Part shown: positions 457 to 21,689 of the stretch, piece after piece
How positions within the stretch are numbered: position 1 is the first letter of the stretch
How the letters are laid out: each line of letters starts with the position of its first letter
DNA from: a virus
Length of the DNA: 23,712 nt
Strand: one strand, 5' to 3'
IMG/VR virus record: IMGVR_UViG_3300009505_000814
Span: 1-23,712 of that record
Translations under genes and position numbers: made by a program
The notes under the pieces: generated by a model
The model's input: only the letters and a program-made list of their open reading frames with translations
The model's database searches: none
Told to the model about the DNA's origin: nothing

Positions 457-1038
457 ATGATTAAATCCAAAATTGAACACGTTTTAATTTCTACACTAAA
501 GGAAAATGAAAACAATCCAAGAAATATAAACAGGCATAAATTTGAAAAATTAAAAAACAGTATTAAGGATTTTCCTGAAATGTTAGCTTTAAGACCAATA
601 GTTGTAGATGAAGACAATATTATTCTAGGCGGAAATATGCGATACAAGGCTTCTAAGGAACTTGGACTGAAAAAGGTTTATGTTATACAGGCCAAAAATT
701 TAAGTGACGCACAGGTAAAGGAATTTATAATTAAAGATAATGTAGGTTTTGGGGATTGGGATTGGGATATTCTTGCTAATTCTTGGGACACTAGCTTATT
801 GACTGATTGGGGTGTAGATGTTTGGAAAAATTCAGATGATTTCAGTTTTGATATTGAAGATGAAGAAGAGGAAGAAGAGGAAAAAAGAAAAATCTCAGAC
901 GACAATTATAGTTCCTTTGAAATAATAATGTATCACGAAAATAAAATAAAGCTAGTTTCAGTTTTATCTAAAATAAAAAAAGAAAAGCAATTTGATAAAC
1001 TAGAAGATGCTTTAATGACATTAATAGAAAATTACTAA
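457..1038 (+). CDS. ParB/Srx-like N-terminal domain protein
   Basis: This 193-residue protein starts at ATG 457 after an A/T-rich leader. Residues 5-100 look like a ParB/sulfiredoxin-type domain: ENNPRN near residue 18, RPIVVDEDNIILGGN at 46-60 with the ParB box-like GGNMR at 58-62, then the typical YKASKELGL helix. In phages such domains often sit before a DNA methyltransferase domain, but none is present here. Instead there is a W/D-rich segment (GDWDWDILANSW), a Glu run at about 135-142, and a short C-terminal alpha/beta tail (SFEIIMY...ALMTLIENY). It is the first gene of a packed block; the next ATG follows the stop after one base. Members of this fold include DNA-binding, CTP-binding and nuclease proteins. 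The activity here is not certain, and plasmid or chromosome partitioning is unlikely because no ParA is nearby. Confidence 0.75.
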   Translation: MIKSKIEHVLISTLKENENNPRNINRHKFEKLKNSIKDFPEMLALRPIVVDEDNIILGGNMRYKASKELGLKKVYVIQAKNLSDAQVKEFIIKDNVGFGDWDWDILANSWDTSLLTDWGVDVWKNSDDFSFDIEDEEEEEEEKRKISDDNYSSFEIIMYHENKIKLVSVLSKIKKEKQFDKLEDALMTLIENY

Positions 1039-1039
1039 T

Positions 1040-1876
1040 ATGATACCAAAAAATATAAAATACGAGGAAAACAATGCTTTTATTTCATTTGACAATTCTG
1101 TTGCAGGTTTAGTCTTTGATGATAGTAAACACGAACAATATCCAATTAGATATTACAATTTAATAAACGGAGAGGGACTTGAAATTAAAAAAGACTGTAG
1201 TTACTACGGATATGTTTATAGTGGCTCTATTGTCTTAGAAAAGGCTGATACGCCTGATTTAGTTCTAGAGGACGGAATGTATTTTTCTATGACTGCACCT
1301 TTTAATATAAAATCAAAAACAAAAGATTCTAAGGCTGTAATAATAGAAGTTCTGCACACCAAAGGAATTTACCCTGAAACAAAATACAGAGCAGTTACTA
1401 CAGTAGGCGGAAAAATTGAAGAGAAAGGCAGGCTTAAATATATTGATGGCTGTACAGATAGCTTATTAATACCTCCTGTAAAAATGGGCGACCCTTGTTT
1501 TAATCATTTATCTTTTCCTAAAAACATAGACCAAACACAGCACACGCACCCGTCACACAGAATTGGAATCGTGGCAAATGGTTACGGTAGATGCCTCACA
1601 CCTTTTGGGACTTTGCCTTTAGTTAAAGGAATGATTTTTGTTATAAAAGAATGGGACGCAAAAACCTACAATAAAGGTTTAGACGGAAAAGATTATCCAA
1701 ATGGGCAGCACAGTTTTGAAACTAGGGAAAGCGGAATGAACGTAATAGCATTTCACCCGGATAGTGACTTTGGTGCAACAGACATAAATCACCCAATGAT
1801 TAACAGAACTTTAGTAACAAATGAAGATGGGGATTTAGTTTCTGCCGGTACTATTGAATCAATTAGAACTGAATAA
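1040..1876 (+). CDS. Double-domain cupin protein
   Basis: This 278-residue protein looks like two tandem beta-barrel cupin halves. The C-terminal half carries the metal-site motifs: HTHPSHR at 168-174 (H168 and H170 as ligands) and GQHSFETRESGMNVIAFHPD from 222, with H224 and H239. The N-terminal half (about 40-110) has the barrel rhythm (GYVYSGSIVLE...LEDGMYFSM) but no His cluster. Cupins bind Fe, Mn, Ni or Zn and act as dioxygenases, isomerases or ligand sensors. The substrate cannot be read from sequence. The gene sits one base after the ParB-like gene and directly abuts the PAPS-reductase-like gene, so it is probably co-translated and part of the same pathway. The fold call is fairly sure; the role is not. 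Confidence 0.7.
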   Translation: MIPKNIKYEENNAFISFDNSVAGLVFDDSKHEQYPIRYYNLINGEGLEIKKDCSYYGYVYSGSIVLEKADTPDLVLEDGMYFSMTAPFNIKSKTKDSKAVIIEVLHTKGIYPETKYRAVTTVGGKIEEKGRLKYIDGCTDSLLIPPVKMGDPCFNHLSFPKNIDQTQHTHPSHRIGIVANGYGRCLTPFGTLPLVKGMIFVIKEWDAKTYNKGLDGKDYPNGQHSFETRESGMNVIAFHPDSDFGATDINHPMINRTLVTNEDGDLVSAGTIESIRTE

Positions 1877-3076
1877 ATGGCTACAAGAAAAAAACAATAC
1901 AACGAACAAAATGTATTTGATGCAGGTATTAGCAGAATAAATTATTTATACGAATCATTTGATAATGTAATAGTAAATTTTTCAGCAGGAAAAGACAGCA
2001 CAGCAGTATTAAATTTAGCCTTAATAGTTTCTAAGAAATTAAATAAAAGGCTTACAGTCAATTTTTTTGATGAAGAAGCAATACACCCTCCGACGATAGA
2101 ATATGCTGAAAGAGTAAGAAAGGAGCATAATAATATTGATTTTAATTGGTACTGCTTAGAATTCAAACACAGAAACGCCTGCTCAAATGAAGAGCCGTTT
2201 TGGTACTGTTGGGACAAAACAAAGGAGGATAAATGGGTTAGGGAATTACCAAAGAATGCAATTACTTCGCACAGTAAATTTGTAAAGGGAATGAGCTTTC
2301 AAGAATTTAGCACGCTTTTACCAAATCAAGCTGATGGCCTTTCTGTTATAATGACAGGCGTAAGAACGCAGGAGAGTTTTCGTAGAATGAAAGCAATGTC
2401 AATGAAAAAAAATGATAATTACATATCAAGGGATAAACACGTTGCACACGCTCACCCGATATATGATTGGAGTAGTGAAGATGTTTGGCTAGCTGTAGTG
2501 AAATTTGATTGGGACTACAATAAAACCTATGACGTAATGAATCAAACTAAAATGTATAATAACTTTTTAAGTCAAAGAGTATGCCCTCCTTTTGGAGAAG
2601 AGCCTTTACGGGGTTTATGGCTTTATGCAGAATGTTTTCCTGAAATGTGGCATAAGATGCTTAACAGGGTTAAAGGAGTTGGGACGGCTTGGAGATACGC
2701 AAATACAGAACTTTACGGCATAGGTAAAAAAGCAAAGCCGGACGGGATAACATATAAGAAATGGGCTGAAATAATACTTGAAAGTTATGACAAGTCAGTT
2801 ATAAATACAGTTAAAAAAAATCTTAATTCAATAATAAAAAGACATTTTGATAAAACAAATGATGATATACCCGAAGAAAATCCGCACCCTCTTACCGGTA
2901 CGTCTTGGGCTTTTATTTGCAAGCTATCAATAAAAGGAGATTTCAAAGGTAGAACAGGACCCTCTCTAGAGGGAAACGCAATTAATGCACAAAAAAAACT
3001 AGGAATAAACTCCTTTGATGAAGCAGTTATAAAATTTGGCAAAAAAGAATACATAAATAAAAGATTTAATAAATGA
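1877..3076 (+). CDS. ibrA-like: IbrA-like PAPS reductase / DUF3440 protein
   Basis: This 399-residue protein belongs to the adenine nucleotide alpha-hydrolase (PP-loop) family related to phosphoadenosine-phosphosulfate reductase. The PP-loop is NFSAGKDST at 34-42, with SAGKDS in place of the usual SGGKDS. Further family features are FFDEEAIHPPT (63-73), the GVRTQESFRR segment (161-170) and HPIYDWSSEDVW (193-204). The long C-terminal part (about 230-399), with CPPFGEEPLRGLW and WRYANTELYG, is typical of IbrA/DUF3440 proteins rather than CysH. I see no classical C-terminal CysH cysteine motif, so sulfate assimilation is unlikely. The family activates a substrate with ATP or binds a PAPS-like nucleotide. 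In E. coli, IbrA acts with IbrB to activate prophage eib genes. The IbrB-like gene follows with an ATGA overlap. Confidence 0.85.
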   Translation: MATRKKQYNEQNVFDAGISRINYLYESFDNVIVNFSAGKDSTAVLNLALIVSKKLNKRLTVNFFDEEAIHPPTIEYAERVRKEHNNIDFNWYCLEFKHRNACSNEEPFWYCWDKTKEDKWVRELPKNAITSHSKFVKGMSFQEFSTLLPNQADGLSVIMTGVRTQESFRRMKAMSMKKNDNYISRDKHVAHAHPIYDWSSEDVWLAVVKFDWDYNKTYDVMNQTKMYNNFLSQRVCPPFGEEPLRGLWLYAECFPEMWHKMLNRVKGVGTAWRYANTELYGIGKKAKPDGITYKKWAEIILESYDKSVINTVKKNLNSIIKRHFDKTNDDIPEENPHPLTGTSWAFICKLSIKGDFKGRTGPSLEGNAINAQKKLGINSFDEAVIKFGKKEYINKRFNK

Positions 3077-3570
3077 AACAACCACTAGACAAAATTAAAT
3101 GGATTGACCGGGAAGAAATATCTCCAAACAATTACAATCCCAATAAGGTAGCACCGCAGGAACTAAAGCTGCTAAAAACATCTATAAAAGAGGACGGGTG
3201 GACGCAGCCAATAGTAATAAATTCAAATAATACTATCGTTGACGGTTTCCATAGGTGGACGGTATCAGGTCATAAAGAAATTTATTCACTAACAAACGGG
3301 AAAGTTCCGGTAGTGGTTATACAGTCAGAAAATAAATCGCAGCAGCAAATGGCTACAATTAGACACAATCGAGCAAGGGGAACTCACGGTGTACTAGAAA
3401 TGAGTAATATTATTTCTGATATGGTAAAGCAGGGAGTTTCAGGGGACGAAATTGCGCTTAGGCTAGGAATGGAAAAAGAGGAAGTAGTAAGACTACTTTT
3501 TAGGTCAGGTATTCCTAAAAGTGAAGTTTTTAAAAATAAGGAATTTAGTAAATCTTGGACACCAAAATAA
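3073..3570 (+). CDS. ibrB-like: IbrB-like ParB-domain protein
   Basis: This 165-residue ParB-type protein is of the kind that partners IbrA. The ParB domain covers about 8-105: ISPNNYNPNKV, then TQPIVINSNNTIVDGFHRW with the signature VDGFHRW at 56-62, then RHNRARGTHG at 97-106. A helix-turn-helix-like segment (SGDEIALRLGMEKEEVVRLL, 123-142) follows, giving a likely DNA-binding half. The ATG overlaps the stop of the IbrA-like gene (ATGA at 3073-3076), the usual IbrA-IbrB arrangement, implying translational coupling and joint action. It is clearly different from the ParB-like protein at 457, so the block has two distinct ParB-fold proteins. Role: transcriptional activation or nucleic-acid modification with IbrA is plausible but unproven. 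Confidence 0.8.
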   Translation: MKQPLDKIKWIDREEISPNNYNPNKVAPQELKLLKTSIKEDGWTQPIVINSNNTIVDGFHRWTVSGHKEIYSLTNGKVPVVVIQSENKSQQQMATIRHNRARGTHGVLEMSNIISDMVKQGVSGDEIALRLGMEKEEVVRLLFRSGIPKSEVFKNKEFSKSWTPK

Positions 3571-3571
3571 A

Positions 3572-3892
3572 ATGAGCAAGTCAGAAACATATAGACCTCT
3601 CCCTGCAAACGTAACTATAGGAAAAAGTAATATTGACGGCTTAGGTTTATTTGCAACAGAAACTATAAAACGAGGCCAATTTATAGGCGTTACTCATTAT
3701 ATTATAAACGATATAAAATATAGAACTCCTTTAGGTGGTTTTTATAATCATAGCATAAAAGCAAATACAGTAAAAGTTCAGGGCTTATATTTAAAGTCTA
3801 GAGATTTTGTATTTAATCTTAAAGCAATAAAGACAATACAAAAGGGAGAGGAAATATTATGTGAATACACTTTCTATAAATTAAAAAAATAA
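3572..3892 (+). CDS. Small SET-domain protein (lysine methyltransferase-like)
   Basis: The best start is ATG 3572, after the A-rich AAAATAA tract. An in-frame ATG at 3521 would need a 50-nt overlap with the previous gene. The 106-residue product is a compact SET domain: SNIDGLGLFATETIKRGQFI at 19-38 (the GxG SAM-binding start), YNHSIKANT at 58-66 matching the NHS-x-x-x-N pseudoknot motif, and GEEILCEYTF at 92-101 with the active-site-type Tyr99. SET proteins methylate protein lysines using S-adenosylmethionine. No pre- or post-SET domain is present, as in other small viral and bacterial members. The target could be a host or virion protein. The gene ends one base into the terminase small-subunit start, so it belongs to the same transcript. 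Confidence 0.8.
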   Translation: MSKSETYRPLPANVTIGKSNIDGLGLFATETIKRGQFIGVTHYIINDIKYRTPLGGFYNHSIKANTVKVQGLYLKSRDFVFNLKAIKTIQKGEEILCEYTFYKLKK

Positions 3893-4248
3893 TGAACAAA
3901 ACTGAACACCATAAAAAAGCAATACTAGAAGCCCTCGAAAAATCACTAGGAGTTGTCACAACTGCCTGCAAAAGCGTTGGAATAGGTAGGACACAGTTTT
4001 ATAATTGGTTAAAGCAGGACGAAGAATTTTCTGTCTTGGTTGAAGATATACAGAATATTGCTCTAGACTTTGCGGAAAGCCAACTGCATAAACAAATTGG
4101 GGAGGGTAACACATCAGCTACAATTTTTTATCTAAAGACAAAAGGTAAAAAAAGAGGCTACATTGAAAGGCAAGAAATTACAGGAGCAGATGGAATGCCT
4201 ACAAACTTTCAAATAGAAATAATTGGGCGAAATAAAGATAAAGACTAA
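3892..4248 (+). CDS. terS: Terminase small subunit
   Basis: This 118-residue protein has an N-terminal helix-turn-helix (VVTTACKSVGIGRTQFYNWL, about 21-40) of the type found in phage small terminases. A helical oligomerisation region follows (DIQNIALDFAESQLHKQIGEG), then TSATIFYLKTKGKKRGYIER. The tail EITGADGMP also fits small terminases. Its role is to recognise the packaging site on the phage DNA and regulate the large subunit. The ATG overlaps the last base of the SET-gene stop, and the end overlaps the large-subunit start by 26 nt. The identity rests on the HTH plus position directly before the large subunit. Confidence 0.85.
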   Translation: MNKTEHHKKAILEALEKSLGVVTTACKSVGIGRTQFYNWLKQDEEFSVLVEDIQNIALDFAESQLHKQIGEGNTSATIFYLKTKGKKRGYIERQEITGADGMPTNFQIEIIGRNKDKD

Positions 4249-5386
4249 TATAGTCTATGAGCATTTATTAGATTCTGACAAAAAAATTATAATTGAACAG
4301 GGTGGGACTAGGTCAGGAAAAACTTATAACATAATTCTTTGGATAATTTTACAATACTGTACGCATAACGTTAACAAAGTTGTTACAATATGCAGGAAGT
4401 CATTTCCTAGTTTACGAGCAAGTGTTTTAAGGGATTTTATGGGGATATTGCAGTCATATAATATGTATGATGAAAAATACCATAATAAGTCAAATTCTGA
4501 ATATCATCTTTTTGGAAACCTAGTTGAATTTATTTCTCTAGACCAACCGCAAAAAATAAGAGGTAGAAAAAGGGATTTACTTTTTATAAACGAGGGAAAC
4601 GAATTATATTTTGAAGATTGGCAGCAGTTAGTTTTTCGTACCCGGGAAAGAATTGTTTTAGACTTTAACCCGTCAGACGAATATCATTGGATATATGACA
4701 AAGTAATACCTAGAGACGATTGCGATTTCTTTAAAACTACGTACCTAGATAACCCGTTTGTTGAAGAAAGTATTATCAAGGAAATAGAAATGCTTAAAGA
4801 TACTGACGAGCAGTATTGGCAGATTTACGGTTTAGGAGAAAGAGCAGCTAGTAGAAGCACAATATTCAAATACTTTGAAGTTTCAACTATTCCTGAAGAT
4901 GCTAAATTAATAGCTTACGGAATGGATTTTGGCTACACCAATGACCCTAGTACATTTGTTTCTGTTTACACTTTGGAACATAACCTGTATATAAAAGAAC
5001 ATCTTTACAGAACCCAAATGACAACAAAAGATATTCACGAATTTTTAAAAACAGAAAACCTATCTAAAAATCCTATTTATGCGGATAGTGCAGAGCCAAG
5101 ACTTATAAAAGAACTTAAAGCAATGGGGCATAATATATTTCCAAGTCTAAAAGGTAAAGATTCAATTAACGCCGGTATTGATTTATTAAAGAGGTACAAG
5201 ATAAATGTATTATCTACATCAACAAATGCTATTTCAGAATTCAGGAATTACAAATGGCGAGAAGATAAATCAGGCTCGTTGATTAATATACCGGAGGACA
5301 AGCATAATCATATAATTGATTCCTGCCGTTACGCTACTTACTCCATTTTAAGTAGGCCAAACTTTGGAAGTTACGCCCTAAATTAA
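4223..5386 (+). CDS. terL: Terminase large subunit (ATPase and nuclease)
   Basis: This 387-residue packaging motor has a Walker A motif GGTRSGKT at 27-34, a Walker B with catalytic Glu in LLFINE at 119-124, and a LDFNPS coupling motif at 146-151. The RNase H-like nuclease domain starts at YGMDFGY (D235), with further acidic residues at D288 (IYADSAEP) and D366 (IIDSCRYA). All expected motor and nuclease residues are present. The reading frame has no ATG upstream of Walker A; TTG at 4223 gives a short natural N-terminus and overlaps the small-subunit gene by 26 nt. Terminase cuts concatemeric DNA and pumps it through the portal, whose gene lies far downstream at 17162. Confidence 0.95.
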   Translation: MGEIKIKTNIVYEHLLDSDKKIIIEQGGTRSGKTYNIILWIILQYCTHNVNKVVTICRKSFPSLRASVLRDFMGILQSYNMYDEKYHNKSNSEYHLFGNLVEFISLDQPQKIRGRKRDLLFINEGNELYFEDWQQLVFRTRERIVLDFNPSDEYHWIYDKVIPRDDCDFFKTTYLDNPFVEESIIKEIEMLKDTDEQYWQIYGLGERAASRSTIFKYFEVSTIPEDAKLIAYGMDFGYTNDPSTFVSVYTLEHNLYIKEHLYRTQMTTKDIHEFLKTENLSKNPIYADSAEPRLIKELKAMGHNIFPSLKGKDSINAGIDLLKRYKINVLSTSTNAISEFRNYKWREDKSGSLINIPEDKHNHIIDSCRYATYSILSRPNFGSYALN

Positions 5387-16805: not shown

Positions 16806-17165
16806 ATGATTATACTAACTACATCAGCAGCTGCTCAATCAATTTCGGTTATTCCTAGAATCTATTTATCTACTTTTGATTTATTAATCAGGGACGATAG
16901 TACAAACGTACAGGAAACTTATAATATTACAAATGCAGTAATTTCAGGCAATTATTTAAACTTTAGTAATATATTTAACCCTATATTAACTGAAAATCAT
17001 TTTTACGATTTAATACTTACTAGCGAATCGCTTGGGGTTATATTTAAAGATAGAATTTTCTGTACAGACCAAGATATAGACCAATTAAATAATGACTATT
17101 TCAACTTAAATGAAAATGAATATTTAAGTTATAACGGTCACGATAATACTTATAAAGTAAGATGA
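16806..17165 (+). CDS. Conserved small virion-block protein upstream of portal
   Basis: This 119-residue protein starts MIILTTSAAAQSISVIPRIY. Its beta-strand-rich pattern (LLIRDDSTNVQETYNITNAV, SGNYLNFSNIF, ENHFYDLILTSESLGVIFKD, IFCTDQDIDQL) is found in Bacteroidota phages just before the portal gene. Function is unknown; a head-tail joining or decoration role is possible. The N-terminus is hydrophobic, with Ala/Ser, but is not a clear signal peptide. The stop overlaps the portal ATG (ATGA). Confidence 0.65.
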   Translation: MIILTTSAAAQSISVIPRIYLSTFDLLIRDDSTNVQETYNITNAVISGNYLNFSNIFNPILTENHFYDLILTSESLGVIFKDRIFCTDQDIDQLNNDYFNLNENEYLSYNGHDNTYKVR

Positions 17166-19225
17166 AACGATTAAGAAATAACAAGGGGCAATTTGCAAAA
17201 AAATCAAAGACATCAGAATTTGGATTTGTAAATTTAAGTACATACACTAGCCCGGAAATTAAAGAGGTATCAGGAAAAGACTATATTGAATACGGCGCAG
17301 ACAATAATTACTTTCAATATCTAATTGACAGATATAATGGAAGCCCTACGAATAACGCTGCAATAAACGGCATCAGTCAAGCTATTTACGGAAAAGGGCT
17401 AAACGCTACTAATTCAAGTCAAAAGCCAAACGAGTACGCTCAAATGGTTTCTTTGTTCAAAAAAGACGTAGTCAGGAAACTTTGCTATGATTTGAAATTA
17501 ATGGGGCAATGTGCGATTCAGGTTATTTATTCTAAGGACAGGAAAACTATTGCACAGTTAGAGCATATCCCGGTTGAAACTTTAAGGGCGGAAAAATGCA
17601 ATGAGGACGGAGAAGTACCTGCATATTATTATTTCAAAGATTGGGCAAATATAAAAAGGAATGACGACCCTTTAAAAATACCGGCTTTTGGTTTGTCAAA
17701 GGAAAGTATTGAGATTTTATACATACAGCCATATAAGGCCGGATTTTATTACTATTCGCCTGTTGATTATCAAGGGGGGTTACAGTACGCAGAACTAGAA
17801 GAAGAGGTTTCAAATTACCATTTAAACAATATTTTAAACGGTTTAAGCCCTAGTATGTTAATCAATTTCAATAATGGTACACCAAACCAACAGGAAAGAC
17901 AATTAATAGAAAATAAAATAGCTCAAAAATTTAGTGGAAGCAGTAATGCAGGGAAATTCATTTTAGCTTTTAATGACAATAAAGAAAGTCAAGCAGAAAT
18001 TACACCTGTGCAATTAAGCGACGCTCACAATCAATACCAATTTTTAAGCGAGGAATCAACTAAAAAAATAATGGTTTCTCACAGGATTGTTTCGCCTATG
18101 CTTTTAGGAATAAAAGACCAATCAGGTTTAGGAAATAATGCAGACGAAATAAAGACTGCTAGTTTATTAATGGATAACACCGTTATAAGGCCTTTTCAGG
18201 AACTTTTAATTGATAATTTTGATAAGATACTAGCTTACAATAATATTAGCTTAAATCTATACTTTACGACCTTACAGCCGTTAGAATTTACAGAAGTAGA
18301 CCAAAGCATTCAAGACAAAGAAACTATTGAAGAAGAAACAGGGGTTGAAATGCAAAAATTTAATCTCAAAAAAATTGACGGAAAACAAGCGTACGAAACA
18401 AAAGAGGAAGCGGAAAAGGTAGCGAAAGAAATGGGCTGCGTTGGTTCACACGAACACGAAATTGAAGGAATTACCTATTATATGCCTTGTGTAACTCACG
18501 AAGAATTGAAATCTCCCTGTTGGGACGGTTACGAGCAAAAGGGAATGAAAGAAAAAAACGGTAAAAAAGTTCCTAATTGTGTTAAGTTAGAAGAAATTAA
18601 TTTAGAATCTTTTGGCGAAGATGAAGATTTAACCGAATGGGAATTAATTGATGAAAGAAAGGTTGACTATGAAACTGAAGATGCCTTAGACTTTCAAATA
18701 GGCCAATTAAACACAAAGGGAAAAAGCTTACTTTCAAAACTTTGGGAATTTGTATCTACAGGAACTGCAAGGCCAAACGCAAAAAGCAGCCAAGACGAAA
18801 CGATAGACGGAACTCAATTTAAAGTACGTTACCAATATGCACCACTAAAGGCTTCTTTACAGTCAGACGATAGTAGAAGCTTTTGTCAAAAAATGGTTGC
18901 AGCTAAAAAGATATATCGAAAAGAAGATATTGAAATGATGGGCAAACAGGCAGTAAATGCCGGTTGGGGTCCTGAGGGTGCAGATACTTATTCAATTTGG
19001 TTTTACAAAGGAGGTGGAGACTGTCATCATTTTTGGATGCGGAAAACTTATATGAAAAAAGGCAAAGGGAATATTGATATTAATAGCCCACTTGCTCCAA
19101 CAATAAGCGTAAACCAAGCTAGAAAAGCAGGATTTAAACCTGAAAAGAATAATGAGTTGGTGGCAAAGCTCCCAAAAGATATGCCTTATAATGGATTTCT
19201 ACCAACTAATAAAAGATTTAAGTAA
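17162..19225 (+). CDS. Portal protein with C-terminal extension
   Basis: This 687-residue protein is longer than the usual portal of about 400-500. Residues 1-380 carry the portal-like part: YIEYGADNNYFQYLIDRYNG (41-60), KLMGQCAIQVIYSKDRKTIA (112-131), IEILYIQPYKAGFYYYSPVD and SHRIVSPMLLGIKDQSGLGN (306-325). Residues about 400-480 form a Cys/His module (CVGSHEHEIEGITYYMPCVT at 426-445, then SPCWDGYEQKGMKEKNGKKV at 451-470). Residues about 490-687 form another module with STGTARPNAKS, QKMVAAKKIYRKEDI and KGGGDCHHFWMRKTYMKKGK (616-635). The portal forms the dodecameric DNA gate and tail-attachment ring. The extension may be a minor head protein fused to it or a Zn-binding module; its function is unknown. 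The connector gene follows with one-base overlap. Confidence 0.75.
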   Translation: MKRLRNNKGQFAKKSKTSEFGFVNLSTYTSPEIKEVSGKDYIEYGADNNYFQYLIDRYNGSPTNNAAINGISQAIYGKGLNATNSSQKPNEYAQMVSLFKKDVVRKLCYDLKLMGQCAIQVIYSKDRKTIAQLEHIPVETLRAEKCNEDGEVPAYYYFKDWANIKRNDDPLKIPAFGLSKESIEILYIQPYKAGFYYYSPVDYQGGLQYAELEEEVSNYHLNNILNGLSPSMLINFNNGTPNQQERQLIENKIAQKFSGSSNAGKFILAFNDNKESQAEITPVQLSDAHNQYQFLSEESTKKIMVSHRIVSPMLLGIKDQSGLGNNADEIKTASLLMDNTVIRPFQELLIDNFDKILAYNNISLNLYFTTLQPLEFTEVDQSIQDKETIEEETGVEMQKFNLKKIDGKQAYETKEEAEKVAKEMGCVGSHEHEIEGITYYMPCVTHEELKSPCWDGYEQKGMKEKNGKKVPNCVKLEEINLESFGEDEDLTEWELIDERKVDYETEDALDFQIGQLNTKGKSLLSKLWEFVSTGTARPNAKSSQDETIDGTQFKVRYQYAPLKASLQSDDSRSFCQKMVAAKKIYRKEDIEMMGKQAVNAGWGPEGADTYSIWFYKGGGDCHHFWMRKTYMKKGKGNIDINSPLAPTISVNQARKAGFKPEKNNELVAKLPKDMPYNGFLPTNKRFK

Positions 19226-20731: not shown

Positions 20732-20886
20732 CAAACGATTATAGAACCCTAGCTTTAAATGCAGGAACATTCGGAATATCAATGACAAGCATAGACGTAT
20801 TTTTAAAAATCGTTTTATTAACCGTATCAATTTTATATACACTACAAAAGTGGTATTTAATGAATGAAAATAAAGACAAAGAATGA
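20728..20886 (+). CDS. Small single-span membrane protein, holin-like candidate
   Basis: ATG 20728 (ATGA overlap with the previous gene) gives 52 residues ending in TGA at 20884-20886. One hydrophobic segment at about 24-41 (VFLKIVLLTVSILYTLQ) is followed by a charged tail (NENKDKE). Small size, membrane span and position two genes after the M15 peptidase fit a small holin or a holin antagonist. The 3TM protein at 21902 is the stronger holin candidate. The next gene starts inside its stop (ATGA). Confidence 0.55.
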   Translation: MTNDYRTLALNAGTFGISMTSIDVFLKIVLLTVSILYTLQKWYLMNENKDKE

Positions 20887-21689
20887 TAGCAGCAATTTAT
20901 GGTTCAACTTGGTGGGGAAGCCCTTTGGTTAATGGTTGGGGAAGCATTTACTATGGCCTAAAAGAATTAAACGAGCCTTTAACAGACGCAACTTTTCAAA
21001 CCGCAGTAAATGATATTTTAGCTCAGGACGACGACGGAGATTATAACCTTGTCCCTTATGGTAGAATTCAAGATTGGGACGTTTCACAAGTTACTTATAT
21101 GGGATATGCTTTTGACGGTAGAACAAATTTCAATGGAGATTTAGGTAAATGGGACGTTTTTAACGTAACATCTATGACAAGAATGTTCAGGGATTGTACT
21201 AGCTTTAATCAGTACATAGGGGAATGGGACGTTAGCGATAATACTAGTGTATATTTAATGTTCAGAAATGCAAGCTCGTTTAACCAAGATTTAACGTATT
21301 GGGATATTACAAATATAACTAGTTTCAACAGTATGTTTAGGGGCGCAACTTCATTCAATGGAGACGTAAGTATTTGGGACACTTCAAATGCAGATAACTT
21401 TATAAGAATGTTTACTGACTGTCCTGCCTTTAATCAAGATTTAAGTGCTTGGGATATTACAGGATTGTCTTTAGCTCCGAACGCAGGCCTTGACTTTTTA
21501 AATGCATCAACTTTATCAACTGCAAATTATGATGCAACATTAATTGGTTGGGCGGCACAAACTCCAATAAACGGTTTAATTTTTAATTTTGGTACAAGTA
21601 AATTTACATTAAGCAGCGCAGCAGAAACTGCAAGAGATACATTAATTAATACCTACGGTTGGACTATTCTTGACGGAGGTGGAATATAA
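20883..21689 (+). CDS. BspA-family (DUF285) repeat protein, possible receptor binder
   Basis: This 268-residue protein has five repeats of about 25 residues starting near 83, 108, 133, 158 and 183. Each begins FNxDLxxWD or a variant and continues with the MFRxAxS pattern, for example FNQDLTYWDITNITSFNSMF. This is the BspA/DUF285 leucine-rich-like repeat used in bacterial adhesins. The C-terminal cap LSTANYDATLIGWAAQTPIN...TLINTYGWTILDGGG is the usual ending of such proteins. The N-terminus (GSTWWGSPLVNGWGSIYYGL) is aromatic/Gly-rich and could attach to the tail. No signal peptide is visible, which favours a virion component over a secreted surface protein. It may bind the host surface. Confidence 0.75.
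   Translation: MIAAIYGSTWWGSPLVNGWGSIYYGLKELNEPLTDATFQTAVNDILAQDDDGDYNLVPYGRIQDWDVSQVTYMGYAFDGRTNFNGDLGKWDVFNVTSMTRMFRDCTSFNQYIGEWDVSDNTSVYLMFRNASSFNQDLTYWDITNITSFNSMFRGATSFNGDVSIWDTSNADNFIRMFTDCPAFNQDLSAWDITGLSLAPNAGLDFLNASTLSTANYDATLIGWAAQTPINGLIFNFGTSKFTLSSAAETARDTLINTYGWTILDGGGI

Follow-up and report, generated by a model that had tools for sequence, protein, structure and literature searches.

Positions 457 to 3,570 of the viral record IMGVR_UViG_3300009505_000814, which at its entire length of 23,712 bases is referred to here as the window, carry a four-gene block that is one version of a wider modular cassette. The block encodes a ParB-fold protein (ParB1), a two-barrel cupin (bicupin), a PP-loop protein related to IbrA, and a second ParB-fold protein related to IbrB (ParB2). 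ParB1, IbrA and ParB2 form the core of the cassette, and the position of the cupin is a variable slot. Genome context shows this core and slot, the exchange of slot genes, and a position beside the terminase genes. The IbrAB pair itself is known, and the cassette, carried by many unrelated phages, is a real and widespread modular version of the phage pair that is undescribed in the literature searched. No published description of an exchangeable-slot cassette was found there, and as most subscription papers lay outside the search, this absence is not proof. We propose, with a probability of about 0.45, that the slot supplies a metabolite, that IbrA carries out an activation step, and that the ParB-like proteins bring the product to a nucleic-acid target, which is most likely phage DNA.

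Two separate scans of viral contigs, one seeded with IbrA and the other with the cupin, gave 76 and 59 loci, respectively, and a cupin-seeded set of 84 viral loci pools the latter with a second cupin scan. Open reading frames were called mechanically, contigs may be fragments, and some contigs entered the counts twice, as two loci, so that the independent cases are fewer than the locus counts. Gene-family profiles were derived from these same loci; the profile of the second PP-loop protein overlaps that of IbrA, and labels were assigned by best score. The order ParB1-cupin-IbrA-ParB2 was repeated on nearly all viral loci with enough flank. Within three genes of the cupin, IbrA was found in 83 of the 84 pooled loci, ParB1 in 79 and ParB2 in 65, and the partners that were missing were mostly lost at contig ends. 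The single locus lacking IbrA (L091) is a cut piece of a contig that also yields L039, which has IbrA. The arrangement is far beyond chance. A sequence-only reading of the window had claimed that the cupin and ParB1 are extra parts of an IbrAB-type system, and these neighbourhood counts back that claim; the association recurs across viral loci and is not a chance feature of one phage lineage. A profile search with IbrA yielded 60 new loci with identity down to 36%, which contained ParB1 (51), ParB2 (52), the bicupin (41), a symporter (5) or TctC (3). The bicupin of such loci at times lies downstream of ParB2 rather than upstream of IbrA, and L166 and L223-L231 likewise keep the association in an altered gene order. 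A tblastn search of isolated phages with the cupin gave no match. On the very similar contigs L008 and L010, the open reading frame call adds a short IbrA-like piece between the cupin and IbrA, beside a full-length IbrA.

The slot can be occupied by the bicupin, with or without an SDR, a second PP-loop protein and a glutamine amidotransferase; a single-domain cupin, with or without an aldehyde dehydrogenase, an amidoligase and a GNAT protein; a DUR3-like symporter; or a TctC solute-binding protein. The slot-gene families identified were TctC, SSF, Aldedh, Amidoligase_2, GNAT, SDR, PP-loop and GATase. Several loci without the bicupin have TctC, a sodium:solute symporter, or a single cupin with an aldehyde dehydrogenase in the gap between ParB1 and IbrA. 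When the symporter was used as the seed, PP-loop and ParB genes adjoined it on 52 of 57 viral contigs, and of the five exceptions at least three are truncated by a contig end; with the single cupin as the seed, 23 of 25 contigs placed it in the cassette. The cupin thus belongs to a set of slot genes that replace one another, transporters among them, which the sequence-only reading had not foreseen, and the overall interpretation given there is partly supported. Among solved structures, the best match of the relatives' symporters was the DUR3 urea symporter (phmmer 1.2e-19 and 3.6e-17), which is the nearest SSS-family relative of solved structure; any substrate assigned to them is putative. The relatives' aldehyde dehydrogenase best matched aminobutyraldehyde dehydrogenase, below the cut-off of that model.

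Several cassettes contain further genes. An eight-gene run (L350:5217-12109) comprises ParB1, a single cupin, Amidoligase_2, GNAT-HAD, an aldehyde dehydrogenase, a second PP-loop protein, IbrA and ParB2. Other phage loci have a second PP-loop protein inserted after the cupin, followed by a class II glutamine amidotransferase, or an SDR before a divergent cupin. Between IbrA and ParB2, a PD-(D/E)XK-like gene (YDCIF..LNDFKG) was found in 13 loci, among them L057:6166-6780, L205:2710-3279 and L211-L220. The same interval holds a conserved protein of about 165 amino acids, U165, in 31 loci, duplicates included (e.g. L048:4371-4865), with the motif AKSYS..PHxYTTR..KQYLYLE..YWEMGRP. U165 matched nothing notable in Pfam or PHROG and no known fold convincingly, although its model has a predicted local distance difference test (pLDDT) score of 88.

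Exchange of the slot gene was observed between close relatives. L239 has the bicupin at the position where L238, L240 and L337 have TctC, and its IbrA and ParB2 are 80-82% and 82-84% identical to theirs (ParB1, 53-55%). None of 143 clusters combines the bicupin with the symporter, TctC or the aldehyde dehydrogenase; because the labels cluster by descent, this exclusivity does not amount to 143 independent events. On the IbrA tree, the symporter label requires four changes, at least three of them forced by supported branches.

The cassette also has a constant position. In 200 loci, the gene for the terminase large subunit (TerL) follows it on the same strand, in 189 of them within 1.5 kb and with a median gap of 450 nt, and the small-subunit (TerS) family is present in 65 loci. 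This position was kept where TerL was dissimilar but IbrA was similar (230 pairs). The terminase genes of the window likewise follow ParB2 (Table 1), in agreement with the sequence-only reading. Its description of the four genes, their features and their spacings was also correct, and Pfam, PHROG and NCBIfam scans back each call. The genes are tightly packed on the + strand with intergenic spacings of +1, 0 and -4 nt. ParB1 has the motif GGNMRYKA, an acidic run at about residues 133-143 and a C-terminal extension that is conserved in the alignment, and its nearest solved chains are ParB/Noc; nearly every cassette has it. ParB2 carries VDGFHRW, in which DGFHR is invariant in the ParB2 alignment. 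The two are distinct proteins with 33% identity over 81 amino acids.

Table 1. Genes of the cassette and of the adjoining terminase region in the window.
Feature	Position	Strand	Basis
ParB1, ParB/Srx-fold	457..1038	+	Pfam PF02195 (ParB_N) 7.7e-9; PHROG 498/940/620; alignment
Bicupin in variable supply slot	1040..1876	+	Alignment; AlphaFold model; fold search; motif count
IbrA-like PP-loop ATPase (PAPS_reduct + DUF3440), SAGKDST P-loop	1877..3076	+	Pfam (PAPS_reduct 1.3e-13, DUF3440 2e-12); PHROG 2302 (4.8e-85); IbrA homology
ParB2, IbrB-like ParB/Srx-fold	3073..3570	+	Pfam PF02195 2.7e-7; PHROG 2159 5.7e-68; IbrB homology; alignment
TerS, downstream context outside the cassette	3892..4248	+	PHROG 309/4044
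TerL, downstream context	4223..5386	+	Terminase_3 3.1e-25

Between ParB2 and TerS lies a SET-domain protein gene (PF00856, 5e-10; 3572-3892, +), of which the window is the sole carrier among the first 123 viral loci. Further along the window are a portal-like protein into which a DUF3721 (PF12518) segment is inserted (17162-19225, +) and, in the late region, a DUF285 repeat protein (PF03382, 7e-43; 20883-21689, +). Neither an Rfam scan nor a tRNA scan matched anything in the window.

The window cupin alone fell below the Pfam cut-off (Cupin_2, 0.02), and 33 of 41 family members matched Cupin_2 at E <=0.1. Its AlphaFold model (pLDDT 93) is a two-barrel bicupin. The motif QxxHxHxxxR was found in the C-terminal barrel of all 124 distinct viral members, and a comparable N-terminal motif in only two. 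The bicupin has H168, H170 and H224, an arrangement of the three-histidine type; Q165 and R174 are invariant, as is H224 in the 41-row alignment. These residues suggest that the C-terminal barrel holds a three-histidine-type metal site; the N-terminal barrel is degenerate. The best solved fold neighbours were ureidoglycine aminohydrolase/DUF861 proteins (4e2q, a ureidoglycine aminohydrolase: VIA Z 18.7, 218 residues, root-mean-square deviation 3.3 Å) and BacB (VIA Z 16.7, 197 residues, 3.5 Å). The two-barrel cupin fold is thus common to (S)-ureidoglycine aminohydrolase, BacB, other bicupins and the window protein. However, the identity to the solved bicupins is only 10-14%, and therefore their function is not transferable; a comparison with PDB sequences, including the solved ureidoglycine aminohydrolase, gave no significant match.

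Homologues of the bicupin were also found in bacterial genomes (70). Five of them sit in prophage-like cassettes with ParB1, and Endozoicomonas L166 has the order ParB1-IbrA-ParB2-SDR-cupin. At 11 further loci, a PP-loop protein of about 357 amino acids (SGGIDST) is encoded nearby, mostly adjoining the cupin (e.g. L136:6895-7965); the two of these proteins that were tested had no Pfam match. An asparagine-synthetase-like protein lies near the homologue in five bacterial loci. Therefore, the partnership of the cupin with a PP-loop ATPase is not confined to the phage cassette. Other neighbours of the non-phage bicupins are metabolic, namely TauD, an aminotransferase and a threonine-aldolase-like protein. 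In cyanobacteria (L171-L188), a bicupin homologue has in its vicinity a hexapeptide (CysE-like) transferase and a pyridoxal-phosphate enzyme of threonine-aldolase-like type.

The relationship of the core to IbrAB was evident from Escherichia phage PhiR5_2, in which IbrB has 42% identity with ParB2 (E 4e-45) and IbrA 32% with the PP-loop protein (3e-55). The P-loop S[GA]GKDS is present in all 164 rows of the IbrA alignment, in which no cysteine column is kept across all cassette and slot types. More specific identities were also considered. The protein shows weak profile similarity to DndC and BrxP, but as a DndC phosphorothioation enzyme it scores 30.7 bits against the NCBIfam TIGR03183 cut-off of 290.4, and it has no conserved cysteines. 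Curated PAPS/APS reductase models score 20-30 bits against cut-offs of 154-235. Both ParB proteins pass the Pfam cut-off for ParB_N, and as chromosome or plasmid partition proteins (TIGR00180, ParB/RepB/Spo0J) they reach 28.2 and 30.7 bits against 58.45. Roles in partition and in classical PAPS reduction were rejected on these scores. We regard phosphorothioation and classical PAPS reduction as disfavoured. The invariant P-loop, the lack of a kept cysteine, and the amidotransferase, amidoligase and second PP-loop partners favour ATP-dependent activation with amide or amine chemistry over sulfur transfer.

The slot genes, which include transporters, point to metabolite supply, and a supply of small metabolites is well supported by the genome context. 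Under the proposed mechanism, the slot would provide a small nitrogenous or carboxylic metabolite. Synthesis would depend on the bicupin in the window and, elsewhere, on a cupin with an SDR, second PP-loop enzyme, glutamine amidotransferase, aldehyde dehydrogenase, amidoligase or GNAT protein; import would depend on the DUR3-like symporter, or on TctC working with host permeases. IbrA would spend ATP on activating either this metabolite or the acceptor for it, as PP-loop ligases and amidotransferases do. Because the slot genes are exchanged and adjoin IbrA, we infer that the slot product is a co-substrate of IbrA, and the chemistry may be adenylation plus conjugation. ParB1 and ParB2 would then guide the product to nucleic acid. 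This is most likely the DNA of the phage itself just ahead of packaging, where the mark might act as camouflage against host nucleases. The choice of phage DNA as the acceptor is the weakest step; it is suggested by the two ParB-fold partners, the terminase position, the nuclease-like inserts and the precedent of CmoX/CmoY (PMC12783734). It is conceivable, though doubtful, that the cassette represents a new class of phage nucleic-acid hypermodification, in which a ParB-PP-loop-ParB machine charges phage DNA before packaging with the molecule provided by the slot, whether built by cupin and amidation enzymes or brought into the cell by a phage-encoded symporter, the same core giving different modifications in related phages.

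Several points weigh against this mechanism. The nucleic-acid target is itself a step that we infer, and the ParB fold also occurs in NTPases, nucleases and small-molecule kinases. The known partners of base hypermodification were mostly absent from 20 cassette records, which may be fragments: a C5-methyltransferase (PF00145) exceeded the cut-off in one, an N6/N4 methyltransferase was found in two, and thymidylate synthase (PF00303) in none. One contig bears the symporter together with a weak single-cupin match. Some divergent IbrA cassettes have no recognised slot gene (e.g. L253 and L254), and the isolated phages with IbrA-ParB pairs that were viewed have none annotated; therefore, the core can exist without a slot gene. 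The core itself also varies, as no DUF3440 domain was found in three deep symporter records (L310, L311 and L313). Going by their IMG-style identifiers, these three and other cassette contigs (e.g. L256 and L258) probably derive from isolates.

The likeliest of the alternatives, though we consider it unlikely, is a metabolite module without a nucleic-acid target, in which a small molecule is made, imported or amidated and changes the metabolism, signalling or surface of the host cell, for instance so that other phages are kept out, with ParB1 and ParB2 as nucleoside-triphosphate-dependent small-molecule enzymes or regulators. All slot genes are small-molecule genes, the non-phage bicupins stand in the metabolic contexts described above, and alteration of the cell wall has been suggested as the role of a phage amidoligase (cited in PMC11318856). 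However, the constant site beside the terminase, the retention of two ParB-fold proteins in most cassettes, and the nuclease-like insertions in 13 loci would be less expected of such a module.

IbrA and IbrB have been proposed as co-activators of prophage eib genes in E. coli and are annotated in phage PhiR5_2. The cassette proteins could similarly co-activate genes of the prophage or the host, the cupin serving to sense a ligand; the homology to both proteins is real, and the profile of the AraC ligand-binding domain matches many of the cupins. However, the P-loop is strictly kept, the metal-type residues of the cupin are invariant, and the slot genes encode enzymes and membrane transporters rather than regulators, which makes this transcriptional role improbable. 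Still less probable is a sulfur chemistry in which a DndC-like enzyme, paired with a DndB-like ParB, phosphorothioates or thiolates DNA or RNA. It would account for the weak DndC/BrxP similarity and for a ParB-fold partner like that in DndB (PMC10853773), but the low DndC score and the lack of a kept cysteine column oppose it, and partners such as glutamine amidotransferase and amidoligase are more in keeping with nitrogen chemistry. Very improbable, finally, is a pre-terminase hotspot gathering unrelated auxiliary genes, with a merely positional link to IbrAB: gene content is variable and some lineages miss a slot gene, but independent symporter, bicupin and single-cupin searches each landed beside ParB/PP-loop genes in 91-99% of loci, genes overlap, slot genes are nearly mutually exclusive, and the association persists with dissimilar TerL and changed gene order.

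Homologues of IbrA and IbrB are common in phages, where most annotations assign them to sulfur metabolism or call them co-activators. The exchangeable slot offers a concrete, testable lead on their partner, a small molecule that is made or imported, and phage DUR3-like symporters and TctC proteins gain a specific hypothesis in place of the label "auxiliary metabolic genes". The cassette shares with IbrAB an adjacent, overlapping pair of a PP-loop/DUF3440 protein and a ParB-fold protein, the IbrB homologue of the window lying directly downstream with a 4-nt overlap; unlike the cassette, the pair in the E. coli phage PhiR5_2 has no ParB1, cupin or transporter annotated alongside. DndBC and BrxP of type 4 BREX also use a PAPS-reductase-like PP-loop enzyme, and Dnd has a ParB-superfamily partner, DndB. 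However, cassette IbrA is below the DndC cut-off and has no conserved cysteines, and such slot genes are not described for these systems. In phage CmoA-CmoX-CmoY, glycine is joined to 5-carboxymethylcytosine by a homologue of asparagine synthetase, and ParBc proteins are often encoded nearby (PMC12783734). This ligation, the ParBc neighbours and the glutamine-amidase variants resemble the cassette, whereas the PP-loop family differs, the cassettes have no recognised adjacent C5-methyltransferase or CmoA-type enzyme, and a transporter-bearing supply slot is not described there (PMC12783734). The DpdA/DpdB system of 7-deazaguanine DNA modification (PMC12839542) relies on a TGT-type enzyme, in contrast to the PP-loop IbrA, and no deazaguanine genes were noted beside the cassettes; its likeness to the cassette lies in a ParB-like ATPase that partners a base-modifying enzyme.

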